Origin: Malaciobacter pacificus
GTDB lineage: Bacteria > Campylobacterota > Campylobacteria > Campylobacterales > Arcobacteraceae
Direction of reading: 5' to 3'
NCBI RefSeq assembly: GCF_004214795.1
Contig: NZ_CP035928.1
Location: forward strand, 1,674,001 to 1,738,000
Length of the DNA: 64,000 bases
Made by a program: the position numbers and the translations under genes. The notes under the pieces are model-generated. The model searched no databases and had not been told where the DNA came from. It saw only the letters and a program-made list of their open reading frames with translations. The stretch's first letter is position 1, and every line of letters begins with the position of its first letter. This document shows positions 15,081-55,013 of the stretch, piece by piece.

Positions 15081-15998
15081 ATGGATATTTTAATTTTTAT
15101 TGTCTCTATGGGAGCTTTAATTTATGGTGCTGATTTTATTATTGAACAAAGTGAAAAAATTGCACTGAAATATAATATCTCTCACTTCGTAATTGGGGCA
15201 ACATTAGTTGCTCTTGGTACAAGTTTACCAGAAATGGCTGTGTCTATGTCAGCTTCAATAAAGGGAAGTGCAGATATTGCAGTTGCTAATGTTATAGGAA
15301 GTACTATCTTTAATATTTCATTAGTTCTTGGTGTTGTATTTTTAATAGCTAAAAAAATCTCTCCAGATAGAGACCTATTTGCAAAAGATTCAGCTTGGGC
15401 ACTTTTTCCTATATTAATTTTTATTTTAATGGGAATTGATGGGAAACTATCTATGGTTGATGGTATTTTATTTTTATTATTAATGGGAGCTTATTTACTA
15501 TTTTTGATTAAATCAAATCAAGTTGAAGAAGTAGAAGATGATGAAGAGGCAGAGTTTTCATGGGCAAAATCTATTTCATTATTACTTGTAGGATTTGTAT
15601 TTGTAATTGGTGGTGCAGATTTTGCCATTGATAGTGCTGGAAATATTGCAAGAGAGTTTGGTATTAGTGAATGGATTATTGGATTATTCTTAGTTGCATT
15701 TGGTACATCACTTCCTGAACTTATGATTTCAATAAAAGCAGCTTTAAAAAATAATGCAGATTTAGCAATAGGAAATATTATTGGTTCAAATGTTGCAAAC
15801 TTTACTATGGTTTTAGGATTAGCATCAATTGTAAATCCACTAAATGTAGATTTTAGTACATATTTCTTTGATATCGCAGCAGCTACTATTGTATCACTTA
15901 TGTTAGTATTTATAACTGCAAATAAACTTTATAATAAATCAGCTGGAATTGCTTTAATGGTAGTTTTAGCATTAGTAATTCAAAACACTCTAGCATAA
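15081..15998 (+). CDS. Calcium/sodium antiporter (YrbG family)
   Basis: An inner-membrane cation/Ca2+ exchanger of 305 residues with about ten membrane helices in two homologous halves. The alpha repeats are seen as GATLVALGTSLPEMAVS (about 39-55) and LVAFGTSLPELMIS (about 205-218), each carrying the GTSLPE ion-binding signature. An acidic loop (EEVEDDEEAEF) separates the halves. It lies directly after ybeY, and a stem-loop follows. Confidence 0.9.
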   Translation: MDILIFIVSMGALIYGADFIIEQSEKIALKYNISHFVIGATLVALGTSLPEMAVSMSASIKGSADIAVANVIGSTIFNISLVLGVVFLIAKKISPDRDLFAKDSAWALFPILIFILMGIDGKLSMVDGILFLLLMGAYLLFLIKSNQVEEVEDDEEAEFSWAKSISLLLVGFVFVIGGADFAIDSAGNIAREFGISEWIIGLFLVAFGTSLPELMISIKAALKNNADLAIGNIIGSNVANFTMVLGLASIVNPLNVDFSTYFFDIAAATIVSLMLVFITANKLYNKSAGIALMVVLALVIQNTLA

Positions 15999-43709: not shown

Positions 43710-44207
43710 TTATCTAAAATTATCAAATACTAATGGTGCTTTTAAATCTAAACTTTTAAGATGTCTCATAATCGATTGTAAATCATCTAAGTTCTTACCA
43801 CTTACTCTAATTTCATCACCTTGATTAACAGCACTTACTTTTAACTTTAAACCTTTTATTTCAGTTTGAATCTTTTTTGCTTCATCTTTTTCTATACTAT
43901 CAATAATTTTAAAACTATATTTTCTATTAGCCCCACTTGAGTCCTCTTTTTTTAACTCCTCAAGTGAATTAATAGAAATACCTCTTTTATTCATTTTAGA
44001 TATTAAAATATCTTTCATTGCATCAACTTTATTATCACTTGCACTTGTAATAGTAATTGTTTTTGCCGTTTGATTAAAATCAATCTCTTTTGTTATACCT
44101 TTAAAATCATATCTATTGTCAATCTCTTTTTGTGCTTGAATAACTGCATTTTTCATCTCTTGTAAATCTAATTTTGCTGATATATCAAATGAATGTTCTT
44201 TTGCCAT
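43710..44207 (-). CDS. YajQ-family nucleotide-binding protein
   Basis: The 165-residue protein matches YajQ end to end: the N terminus FDISAKLDLQEMKNAVIQAQ, NRYDFKGI, and the C terminus SVNQ-type region AVNQGDEIRVSGKNLDDLQ with LKAPLVFDNFR. Members bind cyclic di-GMP or nucleic acids in some bacteria; the role here is open. A diguanylate cyclase gene is in the window but not adjacent. Confidence 0.93.
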   Translation of the reverse strand: MAKEHSFDISAKLDLQEMKNAVIQAQKEIDNRYDFKGITKEIDFNQTAKTITITSASDNKVDAMKDILISKMNKRGISINSLEELKKEDSSGANRKYSFKIIDSIEKDEAKKIQTEIKGLKLKVSAVNQGDEIRVSGKNLDDLQSIMRHLKSLDLKAPLVFDNFR

Positions 44208-44218
44208 ATTTTCTCCTT

Positions 44219-45022
44219 TTATTTATCTTTATCTTTTAAATCTTTTATTTCTTCTCTTAAAGCTTTAACTTCTTCTAAAAGAATATCTAATTTTAAATGA
44301 TCTTCATGAATTTCATCTTTCATCTCTGCTTCTTGAAGTTTTTGCATCTCTCCAATAATAACTGCAACAAAAAGATTGAAAAATACAAATGCTGCAATAA
44401 TTACAAATGAAACAAAGTAAACCCATGCCCAAGGATAAACTTCCATTGCTTCATACATAACATCAGTCCAATCTTCAAATGTTAATACTCTAAACAGTGT
44501 TAACATAGAGATTAAAAAGTCTTTCCATAAGCCAGAAGGTAAATCAACAAAGAAGAAACTTCCAATAATTGCATAAATATAAAATATTATAAACATTAAT
44601 ATTACAATATCAATAATTGATGGAATAGCTTTAATAAGCATATCTATAATTGCTTTAAGCTCAGGCCGTGCTGTAAACAATCTTAAAATTCTAAATACTC
44701 TCATAAGTCTAGCAATTGCAGCAAAACTTGAAGACTCCAAAGGAAGTAAAGTTATTACAACAATAATAAAATCAAATACATTCCAACCTGATTTAAAGAA
44801 ATTTAAAAATCTTTTTTCAGCAACCATTTTAATTGCTAACTCAAACACAAAGTAAATTGTTACAAAATAATCTGCAAACCTTAAAAACATATCATATTGA
44901 GATTCTACTTCATCTAAAGTTTTAAAACCTAAAATAGAAGCATAAGCAATAATAATTATTGTAGTTAAATTAGAAAACCATCTAGAATCTCTTATTTGCT
45001 CTAGTTTTTGAATAGCTGTCAT
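44219..45022 (-). CDS. Voltage-gated cation channel of the NavAb/BacNav type, with a Ca-like filter
   Basis: A 267-residue one-repeat channel with six membrane helices. S4 carries arginines at 105, 108, 111 and 114 in ARLMRVFRILRLF, the voltage sensor spacing. The pore helix and selectivity filter read LFRVLTFEDWTDVMYEAM. Against the NavAb filter TLESWSM the residues are T181-F-E183-D184-W185-T186-D187, so aspartates replace Ser178 and Met181 of NavAb. S6 is FVFFNLFVAVIIGEM, followed by a charged C-terminal coiled coil (about 227-267). It probably forms tetramers. The acidic filter suggests calcium or mixed permeability; that is inference. Confidence 0.92.
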   Translation of the reverse strand: MTAIQKLEQIRDSRWFSNLTTIIIIAYASILGFKTLDEVESQYDMFLRFADYFVTIYFVFELAIKMVAEKRFLNFFKSGWNVFDFIIVVITLLPLESSSFAAIARLMRVFRILRLFTARPELKAIIDMLIKAIPSIIDIVILMFIIFYIYAIIGSFFFVDLPSGLWKDFLISMLTLFRVLTFEDWTDVMYEAMEVYPWAWVYFVSFVIIAAFVFFNLFVAVIIGEMQKLQEAEMKDEIHEDHLKLDILLEEVKALREEIKDLKDKDK

Positions 45023-45026
45023 TTAA

Positions 45027-45416
45027 TTATTTGTCCTTAAGAATAGAGTATGTTGCCATTAACCATGCAATAATTAATAATGTTCCTCCAATAGGAGTAA
45101 TTGCACCTAATATGGGAATATTTAAAATAACTAGCAAATATAACGAAATAGAAAAAATCAATAAACCTATAACCATAAGCCAACATGCAATAATAAGCTT
45201 TTTGTTATTCTCTTTAAAATTAATAAAAATAGAAAGAGCAAATAAACCTAAAGTATTATAAAAGTGATACTCAACACCAGTATTATAAATTTTTAACATA
45301 TCATCTGTTACTATTGATTTTAATCCATGTGCCCCAAAAGCACCTATTGCAATAGCTAACGCCATTAAAAATGAGGCTATTGCAAAAAAGTTTTGTGAAG
45401 TTTTATTTAAAGTCAT
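45027..45416 (-). CDS. DUF423 (YgdD-like) membrane protein
   Basis: A 129-residue protein with four membrane helices. The N-terminal stretch AIAIGAFGAHGLKSIV and the next YNTGVEYHFYNTLGLFAL are the conserved marks of DUF423. The family function is unknown. It lies four bases before the channel gene on the same strand. Confidence 0.9.
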   Translation of the reverse strand: MTLNKTSQNFFAIASFLMALAIAIGAFGAHGLKSIVTDDMLKIYNTGVEYHFYNTLGLFALSIFINFKENNKKLIIACWLMVIGLLIFSISLYLLVILNIPILGAITPIGGTLLIIAWLMATYSILKDK

Positions 45417-45461
45417 TTAATATCTTTCCTAATTTTTTGGGAAGTATATCAAATTTCTGTT

Positions 45462-45749
45462 TTATTTATCTTTTTTCTCTTTTTTTTCTTTTGACTCTTT
45501 TTTACTTGAAAATCCAGCACCTTTTTTTTCTTTCTTTTTTAATTCAAGACTAGAAATCAGTTCTTTATAATCCATACCTTCTTGATTCATCTTTGCAAAA
45601 CAAGCAGCAGCAACCGCTATAGCATTAGGTACCTCTTTTTTCTTCTTATATGCTTGAATGTTTTTTTCACTAACTTTAATTAAAGCAGTAAATTTTGGTA
45701 TGGTTAATTCAGCATCTAATAAAAGTTTTTTAAATTCGATAAAAGTCAT
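45462..45749 (-). CDS. Small HTH-like protein with a lysine-rich tail
   Basis: A 95-residue protein from ATG 45749, chosen over a longer frame from 45785 because GGGAAG lies shortly before it. The first 60 residues look like an XRE-type helix-turn-helix (LTIPKFTALIKVSEKNIQAYKKKKEVPNAI). The last 25 are almost only Lys, Glu and Ser, a flexible basic tail likely to contact nucleic acid. No gene name can be given. Confidence 0.6.
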   Translation of the reverse strand: MTFIEFKKLLLDAELTIPKFTALIKVSEKNIQAYKKKKEVPNAIAVAAACFAKMNQEGMDYKELISSLELKKKEKKGAGFSSKKESKEKKEKKDK

Positions 45750-45805
45750 GTTCTTCCCAAGTAATAAATTTGAAAAATTATACACATAACTTTTTAAAAT
45801 AATTC

Positions 45806-46252
45806 TTATACAACATCAACTTCCCAAAAAAAATCAATCCATTCATTAGCTTCTCTTACTGAATAATCAGGCTTTAATACTGCTGTTCCTTTATAAAAAA
45901 GTGTTGCTAACTTAAAATCTACATTAGGAAACTTTTCATTTAATAACTTTAATATTGCCTCCATAGTTTCTCCTGAATCAACAATATCATCAATAATTAA
46001 AACTCTTTTAGCATGTGATATATCAGGAATATTAAAAATATTAAAAGTATCTAACTTTAAATCACCTTCATAATGAATAGAATTTAATGTATACAAATTT
46101 CTCATATCCATAGCTTGAGCCATACAATGAGCTAATGTCAAACCACCCCTTGCAACTGCCAATAAAATATCTGGTTCATAGCCTCTACAACTATCAACTA
46201 ACTTTTGTGTATCTTTTTTAAACATGTCATAACTATAATATAATTTTTCCAA
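45806..46252 (-). CDS. Purine phosphoribosyltransferase
   Basis: The 148-residue protein has the type I phosphoribosyltransferase loop VLIIDDIVDSGETMEAIL that binds PRPP, and the early DILLAVARGGLTLAH loop. Size and the C-terminal EWIDFFWE fit xanthine/guanine or hypoxanthine enzymes. It lies 9 bases after a purine permease gene, which supports purine salvage. Confidence 0.85.
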   Translation of the reverse strand: MEKLYYSYDMFKKDTQKLVDSCRGYEPDILLAVARGGLTLAHCMAQAMDMRNLYTLNSIHYEGDLKLDTFNIFNIPDISHAKRVLIIDDIVDSGETMEAILKLLNEKFPNVDFKLATLFYKGTAVLKPDYSVREANEWIDFFWEVDVV

Positions 46253-46261
46253 ATATAATCC

Positions 46262-47554
46262 TTATAAAATAAATGCTAATGCACTAATTATTGTAATAAC
46301 CAATATACCTAAATTTAAATCTTCAAATTCTCTTTTTACTAACTTAATAATAGTATAAAATAAAAAACCTGCTGCAATTCCATTTGTTATAGAAAAAGTT
46401 AATGGCATTAATATAACAATTAAAAACGCAGCCGCACAAGTAGCTAAATCAGCCTTTTCAAAATTGATTTTTCCAAGTTCAGTAAACATAAGTACTCCAA
46501 CAACAACTAAAACTGGATAAATAGCATTTGATGGAATTGATTTAAATAATGGCAACAAAAATAAAGTTCCAATAAAAAACAATGCAGTAAAAACAGCAGT
46601 TAAACCTGTTCTTCCACCCTCTTCAACTCCACTAGCACTCTCTATAAAAGATGTAGTAGTTGAAACACCAATTAAACTTCCTGCTGTTGTAGCAACTGCA
46701 TCAGCTTCTAATGTTTTTTGCAAAGACTTATCATCTTTATTATTCTCTTGAAATAACTTAGCTCTAGTACCAACACCAGTTAAAGTACCTAAGGTATCAA
46801 ACATATCAGTAATTAAAAAAGTAATAATTACAGGTAATAATGATAATGATACAGCACTTAGAATATCTAATTTAAATAATATTGGTTCAATTGAAGCGGG
46901 AATTGAAATAAACTCTTTAGGAAAATCGCCAATACCAATTATCCATGCAGTTATTGAAGTAATCAAAATTGATAAAATGAAAGCTCCACGTAACTTATAT
47001 GCATAAAAACTAAAAGATAAAACTAAACCTAAAACTCCAATCAATACTTCTGGTTTAGAAAAATCTCCTAATTCAACTAACGTAGCATCATTGCCAACAA
47101 TCATTCCCATTTGTTTTAAACCAATAAAAGCAATAAAAGTTCCAATACCAGCACTAATTGCACGTCTTAAATTCATTGGTATTGAAGTCATAATCCAAAC
47201 TCTAAAATTAGTTAAGGATAAAATAACAAATAATATACCCGATAAAAAAACGATCCCTAAAGCAGTTTCCCATGGTATTTTCATACCTAATACTAAACCA
47301 TATGAAAAATAAGCATTTAAACCCATTCCTACACTCATTGCAATAGGAGTATTAGACCATAGTCCTGAAAACAAAGTTGATAATATTGTTATCAGTGCCG
47401 TTGCTGTAATTACAGCATCAATTGGTAAACCTGCATCTGCTAATATAAATCCATTTACAGGAACAATGTACATCATCGTTAAAAAAGTTGTAAAACCTGC
47501 AAAAAATTCTGTTCTTACATTAGTATTGTGTTGAGATAATTTAAATAAGTCCAT
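46262..47554 (-). CDS. NCS2-family purine permease
   Basis: A 430-residue transporter with about 13 membrane helices. NTNVRTEFFAGFTTFLTMMYI, ANTPIAMSVGMGLNAYFSYG-like region and GVSTTTSFIESASGVEEGGRTGLTA identify the AzgA/PbuG branch that takes up adenine, guanine or hypoxanthine. It heads an operon with the phosphoribosyltransferase. Confidence 0.92.
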   Translation of the reverse strand: MDLFKLSQHNTNVRTEFFAGFTTFLTMMYIVPVNGFILADAGLPIDAVITATALITILSTLFSGLWSNTPIAMSVGMGLNAYFSYGLVLGMKIPWETALGIVFLSGILFVILSLTNFRVWIMTSIPMNLRRAISAGIGTFIAFIGLKQMGMIVGNDATLVELGDFSKPEVLIGVLGLVLSFSFYAYKLRGAFILSILITSITAWIIGIGDFPKEFISIPASIEPILFKLDILSAVSLSLLPVIITFLITDMFDTLGTLTGVGTRAKLFQENNKDDKSLQKTLEADAVATTAGSLIGVSTTTSFIESASGVEEGGRTGLTAVFTALFFIGTLFLLPLFKSIPSNAIYPVLVVVGVLMFTELGKINFEKADLATCAAAFLIVILMPLTFSITNGIAAGFLFYTIIKLVKREFEDLNLGILVITIISALAFIL

Positions 47555-54715: not shown

Positions 54716-54790
54716 TGGCTCCGGCACCTGGATTCGAACCAGGGACCAAATGATTAACAGTCATCTACTCTACCACTGAGCTATGCCGGA
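54716..54790 (-). tRNA. tRNA-Asn (GTT), copy 1
   Basis: The minus strand forms a cloverleaf from TCCGGCATAGCTCAGTGGTA to an encoded CCA; anticodon GTT in CTGTTAA. Identical in all 75 bases to the two copies upstream. Confidence 0.97.
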
Positions 54791-54820
54791 ATTTGTAAGT
54801 TTTGAAACAATTTATTTAAG

Positions 54821-54895
54821 TGGCTCCGGCACCTGGATTCGAACCAGGGACCAAATGATTAACAGTCATCTACTCTACCACTGAGCTATGCCGGA
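54821..54895 (-). tRNA. tRNA-Asn (GTT), copy 2
   Basis: Same 75-base sequence as copies 1 and 3, 30 bases from copy 1. Confidence 0.97.
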
Positions 54896-54938
54896 ATCTT
54901 AATAAATTAGTTTGAAAAGGTATTTTAAAAAAAGTTAG

Positions 54939-55013
54939 TGGCTCCGGCACCTGGATTCGAACCAGGGACCAAATGATTAACAGTCATCTACTCTACCACT
55001 GAGCTATGCCGGA
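54939..55013 (-). tRNA. tRNA-Asn (GTT), copy 3
   Basis: Same 75-base sequence, 43 bases from copy 2. The spacers differ from each other, so the copies are separate units and not a longer duplicated block. Confidence 0.97.

Follow-up and report, generated by a model that had tools for sequence, protein, structure and literature searches.

The stretch of DNA analysed here, referred to below as the window, comprises 64,000 nucleotides of the Malaciobacter pacificus genome. It carries a gene for a single-domain voltage-gated cation channel, the features of which, together with both flanking genes, are given below in window positions.

43710..44207, minus strand: YajQ-family (DUF520) gene (PF04461, E 3e-53), downstream of the channel, seldom adjoining it elsewhere
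44219..45022, minus strand: single-domain voltage-gated cation channel gene, 267 AA, six transmembrane helices and a C-terminal helix (from the open reading frame, Ion_trans match and model)
44225..44344, minus strand: S6 cytoplasmic extension, neck and predicted coiled-coil, residues 227-266, within a single unbroken model helix (H199-266)
44438..44461, minus strand: start of the P2 pore helix, VMYEAMEV, missing the Gly and Arg present in canonical BacNavs (GIVRP) and one residue shorter
44462..44482, minus strand: selectivity filter TFEDWTD, residues 181-187, in frame in the open reading frame 44219-45022
44483..44518, minus strand: P1 pore helix, ending SMLTLFRVL, residues 169-180 (model helix H169-180, block pLDDT 92-95)
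44669..44983, minus strand: voltage-sensor domain S1-S4, residues 14-118 (model helices H14-34, H37-68, H79-92, H99-118)
44681..44710, minus strand: S4 gating charges R105, R108, R111 and R114, at every third residue
45027..45416, minus strand: DUF423 membrane protein (PF04241), 4 bases upstream of the channel gene, a conserved Arcobacteraceae neighbour

The channel open reading frame matches Pfam Ion_trans (E 5e-44, residues 13-232) and is the only one in the 2.66-Mb genome to do so. The codons ACA TTT GAA GAT TGG ACT GAT encode the filter TFEDWTD, and a degenerate DNA pattern for this motif matched once in the window and not at all in 100 dinucleotide shuffles. The original prediction had placed the motif at 44461-44483; its presence in frame was confirmed, while the interval proved one base too wide at each end. 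In the AlphaFold monomer model (mean pLDDT 78.9, pTM 0.56, pore region above 90), which was used for the fold alone as filter geometry is not readable from a monomer, S1-S4 are followed by S5, two pore helices and a long S6 running to the C terminus. The best Foldseek matches of the model were NavAb, CavAb, NavMs and NaChBac (probability 1.00), and the nearest single-domain solved structures to the protein were NavRh, NaChBac, NavMs and NavAb. High phmmer scores to human T-type Ca2+ channels were discarded as evidence on Ca2+, being summed over repeats each of which scored below NavRh or NaChBac.

The six-helix, single-domain Ion_trans architecture, the S4 arginines, the P1-filter-P2 pore and the C-terminal helix are those of the BacNav superfamily, which bears out the earlier description of a BacNav-type voltage-gated channel, from the bacterial family of NavAb, with three acidic filter residues. 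Judged from sequence and model, voltage sensor and pore look intact. R105, R108, R111, R114, E61, D84 and the entire filter were invariant in a 37-member alignment, the relatives in which had been gathered partly via the filter motif.

Upstream of the channel, the gene order is kept in Arcobacteraceae (window 45027-47554) and comprises a xanthine/uracil permease, a phosphoribosyltransferase, an unknown 107-AA protein, DUF423 and the channel. The genes of the channel neighbourhood, when checked for a hint of the ion conducted, gave no clue. Elsewhere in the window, a CaCA-type Na+/Ca2+ exchanger, common in bacteria, is encoded at 15087-15974 (two PF01699 repeats in one 314-AA frame), and three tandem tRNA genes of equal Rfam score lie at 54719-55013, near the rRNA operon.

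Two channel paralogues in Arcobacteraceae

Whole-genome searches revealed orthologues of the window channel, 67-91% identical, in 51 of 104 Arcobacteraceae genomes, its own counted. The TFEDWTD motif was exact in all 56 Campylobacterota orthologues read and was encoded by 21 different DNA 21-mers; since many synonymous 21-mers specify one filter, its conservation acts at the protein level, and the sequences indicate that it is under strong constraint. A second channel group, 30-39% identical to the window protein, occurs in 39 of the 104 genomes and has the NavAb filter TLESWSM in 38 of 38 distinct proteins read. An apparent TLESWSG filter in this paralogue was rejected as a local-alignment artefact hiding an inserted Met, the true filter being TLESWSM. 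Both channel types co-occur in 23 genomes, each with its own fixed filter; the genome of the window has the TFEDWTD type alone, and one genus (group g2) has mostly the NavAb type or neither. The window protein is about 31-37% identical to NavAb orthologues, and sequence comparison identifies it as a paralogue distinct from NavAb and not as NavAb with changed residues. The label "NavAb-type", applied to it originally, was therefore too close, the NavAb orthologue being the other, TLESWSM-bearing paralogue.

The channel types differ also in the register of P2. TFEDWTD and TLEDWTD channels have 10 residues separating the filter Trp from the xP..W turn ahead of S6, canonical TLESWSM channels 11, and MAFFT sets the alignment gap directly after the filter Trp. 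Canonical channels bear GIVRP in P2, whereas P2 of the window channel starts with VMYEAM. The 22 residues spanning P1, filter and P2 carry a net acidic charge of mostly 3-4 per subunit, compared with 1 in canonical channels. Because P2 is one residue shorter than in NavAb, residue-by-residue mapping is unsafe: the proposed Asp at the position of NavAb Met181 is found by counting (D187 = M181) but not by alignment, which leaves one residue fewer after the Trp.

Phylogeny and spread of acidic filters

A careful maximum-likelihood tree of 67 proteins was built after exclusion of long-branch rows (L124, L125, L276, L293 and L296). The NavAb reference sequence is an exact match to PDB 5yua. The window channel grouped with its Campylobacterota orthologues (support 100/99) and belonged to a 30-member clade (100/99), which also has channels of Halomonas, Marinobacterium, Alteromonas, Methylophaga, Thiomicrorhabdus and others. 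This clade is separate from the canonical one of 27 rows (100/95), which includes NavAb, NavMs and NaChBac. A second acidic group, mostly TLEDWTD, fell between the two with weak attachment (80/14). The original prediction had asked whether an alignment of homologues would set such channels apart, and the window channel does indeed lie in its own clade, away from NavAb and NaChBac. Besides its position outside the canonical clade, it differs from canonical NavAb-like BacNavs, which are marked by TLESWxxG, in reading TFEDWTDV, without Gly at position 8.

Acidic filters of this kind were also surveyed by HMM searches, with no selection on the filter. Counts were 29 TFEDWTD and 17 TLEDWTD in the class sample (gammaproteobacteria) and 9 and 14, respectively, in the phylum sample, with a scatter of other filters in each; outside the canonical group these are the two usual filters. 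Such acidic filters are therefore common in proteobacteria and not special to the window. Pattern scans of genomic and viral contigs were left out of the conservation evidence, as TFEDWTD was itself a search pattern and the counts are biased.

Two IMG/VR contigs (L206, L207) have TFEDWTD channels; since the L206 channel nests within those of Halomonadaceae, its contig may derive from the host or from the flank of a provirus. The long-branch Campylobacterales channel L125 (G378) has the filter TFESWSE and by similarity falls outside both main groups.

Orthologues in the genus Halomonas (L317-L346; the genus of the Halomonas halmophila genome G392) take two forms, TFEDWTD-VMYA (11/30) and TFESWAT-AVLYP (19/30), the latter with an inserted residue. 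When the filter and P2 columns were removed before tree building, the change of filter appeared as a single event (100/100) nested within acidic-filter channels, which suggests that TFESWAT is the derived form. The two most similar proteins on either side of it share 86% identity and offer a natural test of the acidic rings and of a one-residue P2 change, better than comparison with NavAb.

Shimomura et al. (2020; PMC7041947) described AnclNavs as widespread channels, apart from the NavAb-like and Bacillus ones, some phyla having both, and noted that the filter predicted for the BacNav ancestor is that of NavPp, TLEDWTD. By their definition TFEDWTD is an AnclNav filter, being TLESW-like with extra acidic residues and near the ancestral TLE(D/S)WTD, and the window clade is a branch apart from the NavAb-like and Bacillus (NaChBac) groups. 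It groups with Halomonas channels, and one published AnclNav comes from Halomonas (H. elongata YP_003896792); the tree covers other species of that genus. Matched by filter definition and tree position, the window channel appears to fit the AnclNav group, within the Campylobacterota branch of a TFEDWTD clade that includes gammaproteobacterial channels. It would widen that group by a large branch with a fixed TFEDWTD filter in the family of NavAb, and often in the same genome as NavAb.

Predicted ion selectivity

Tetramer, gating, selectivity and role we infer as follows. Each subunit would contribute an S1-S4 voltage sensor and an S5-P1-filter-P2-S6 pore, and on depolarisation S4, with its four arginines, would shift and the tetramer open. 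Four TFEDWTD filters would form three carboxylate rings (E183, D184 and D187), that is, three carboxylates per subunit and 12 per tetramer if the channel is tetrameric like its family. These rings may draw, concentrate and bind hydrated cations, Ca2+ among them. Given the Asp and Thr at positions 4 and 6, respectively, Ca2+ would be bound and not passed efficiently, and the outcome would be a Na+ current with Ca2+ block or slowing, or with modest Ca2+ entry, from a channel that is not highly Ca2+-selective. Its role might be to let cations back into marine bacteria in response to voltage, a task other than that of the NavAb paralogue. BacNavs of alkaliphilic Bacillus serve Na+ re-entry for pH homeostasis and have a role in motility (PMC4225499); a comparable Na+ re-entry task in marine Campylobacterota would be a guess by analogy.

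By analogy with published channels, the window channel is most likely modestly selective, Ca2+-binding and Na+-permeable. In its full form, we hold it somewhat probable that the protein is a homotetrameric, depolarisation-activated channel of the AnclNav kind, permeable to Na+ and modestly selective, with Ca2+ binding and partly permeating or blocking (PCa/PNa below about 10).

The original prediction went from the acidic filter to a possible natural calcium or mixed channel. In a calcium-selective channel the three acidic rings would act as in engineered NavAb and NaChBac mutants. This precedent holds in part: NavAb TLEDWSD and NaChBac TLEDWAD are described as Ca2+-selective (PMC7041947), and a review credits NavAb S178D alone with an about 100-fold gain in Ca2+ permeability (PMC10120453). 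The ungapped filter-P2 stretch, too, has more residues identical with human Cav2.2 domain II (11/18) than with NavAb (7/18). However, TLEDWSD or TLEDWAD introduced into NavPp gave no Ca2+ permeation (PMC7041947), and the reports on NaChBac LEDWAD conflict (Ca2+-selective in PMC7041947, non-selective in PMC8002053). Native NavPp, with TLEDWTD, prefers Na+ over Ca2+, K+ and Cs+ (PCa/PNa 0.308) and shows low-affinity Ca2+ block, while in CavMr the determinant of Ca2+ selectivity is Gly at position 4, and Asp there lowers it (PMC7041947). Position 4 is Asp in the window channel and in 56/56 Campylobacterota orthologues, and the P2 register is unlike that of NavAb. The step from acidic filter to calcium channel thus finds no support in NavPp and CavMr; by this comparison a calcium channel is possible but disfavoured, and we judge a calcium-selective one improbable. 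We give as little credence to the idea that the TFEDWTD channel of Arcobacteraceae works alongside NavAb in one cell as a native voltage-gated channel that prefers Ca2+. Were it so, some Arcobacteraceae would pair a voltage-gated Na+ channel with a voltage-gated Ca2+ channel, and TFEDWTD would be a natural version of TLEDWSD/TLEDWAD, with a selectivity determined by a backbone and P2 register that differ from those of both NavAb and NavPp.

While the calcium half of the proposed "calcium or mixed channel" is not upheld, a mixed channel is possible, as TLEDWTD placed in the CavMr backbone (CavMr-Pp) gives a PCa/PNa that has fallen to 13.8, with poor discrimination of K+ and Cs+. A non-selective channel for Na+, K+ and Ca2+ of that sort, favouring Ca2+ by a factor of about ten or more, nevertheless seems unlikely to us, given that the same filter in native NavPp favours Na+. 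At the other extreme, a plain Na+-selective equivalent of NavAb, in which the extra aspartates are without effect, would agree with the shared overall fold and with the odd filter of NavRh, which is Na+-selective once grafted into NaChBac (PMC4225499). Yet Asp at position 4 alters Ca2+ handling in the channels and mutants cited here, and 23 genomes retain both filter types, which makes such equivalence very unlikely.

Since TLEDWTD yields a PCa/PNa of 0.3 in NavPp vs. about 14 in the CavMr backbone, a forecast from NavPp is weak, and such dependence on the backbone means that filter charge alone is no predictor of a calcium channel here. A later paper, citing NavPp, states that how many acidic residues a filter has, and which ones, no longer suffices to predict selectivity (PMC8002053). 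The window channel is a warning against inferring ion selectivity from filter charge.

Comparison with known channels

A full-text literature search for FEDWTD found no paper, and no recorded current from the window protein or any TFEDWTD channel was found in the literature. No current could be detected from the AnclNavs of H. elongata and T. turnerae (YP_003073405), whose filters resemble that of NavPp (PMC7041947). The window channel appears to be a member of an already described, widespread bacterial channel group, in which the TFEDWTD branch seems to be uncharacterised.

Compared by filter, the AnclNav NavPp of Plesiocystis pacifica is, like the window channel, single-domain and voltage-gated with the same three carboxylates (PMC7041947), and Leu vs. 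Phe at position 2 is the sole filter difference. Phe at this position occurs in some BacNavs and AnclNavs, and NavAb L176F, with Phe for Leu, created no Ca2+ block (PMC10349818). CavMr of Meiothermus ruber, a native prokaryotic Ca2+ channel, also belongs to the AnclNav group and shares the acidic residues at positions 3 (Glu) and 7 (Asp), but in its filter TLEGWVD the Ca2+ selectivity is carried by the Gly and Val at positions 4 and 6, where the window channel has Asp and Thr. Gly at position 4 was seen in L308, L309, L310, L314 and L315 (TTEGWPT, TMEGWPD, TLEGWVE), inside the canonical NavAb/NavMs clade, L309 and L310 being adjacent genes on a single contig (G803:C135); by the CavMr rule these would be likelier than the window protein to be natural Ca2+ channels.

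NavRh (HIMB114, PDB 4dxw) is the top-scoring single-domain PDB chain against the window protein. Its filter, printed TLSSWET-, is likewise without a residue after position 7, but unlike in the window filter, neither position 3 nor position 4 is Glu or Asp. NavAb (Arcobacter butzleri) comes from the same bacterial family and has the same fold; it is the other paralogue, about a third identical, with the filter TLESWSM and a P2 one residue longer that contains Gly and Arg. The engineered CavAb has Asp at positions 4 and 7, as in the window channel. The AnclNav-like channels of gammaproteobacteria (Halomonas and others) belong to the same clade as the window channel, are 40-50% identical and mostly have TFEDWTD, the derived Halomonas subclade differing by TFESWAT and a longer P2.
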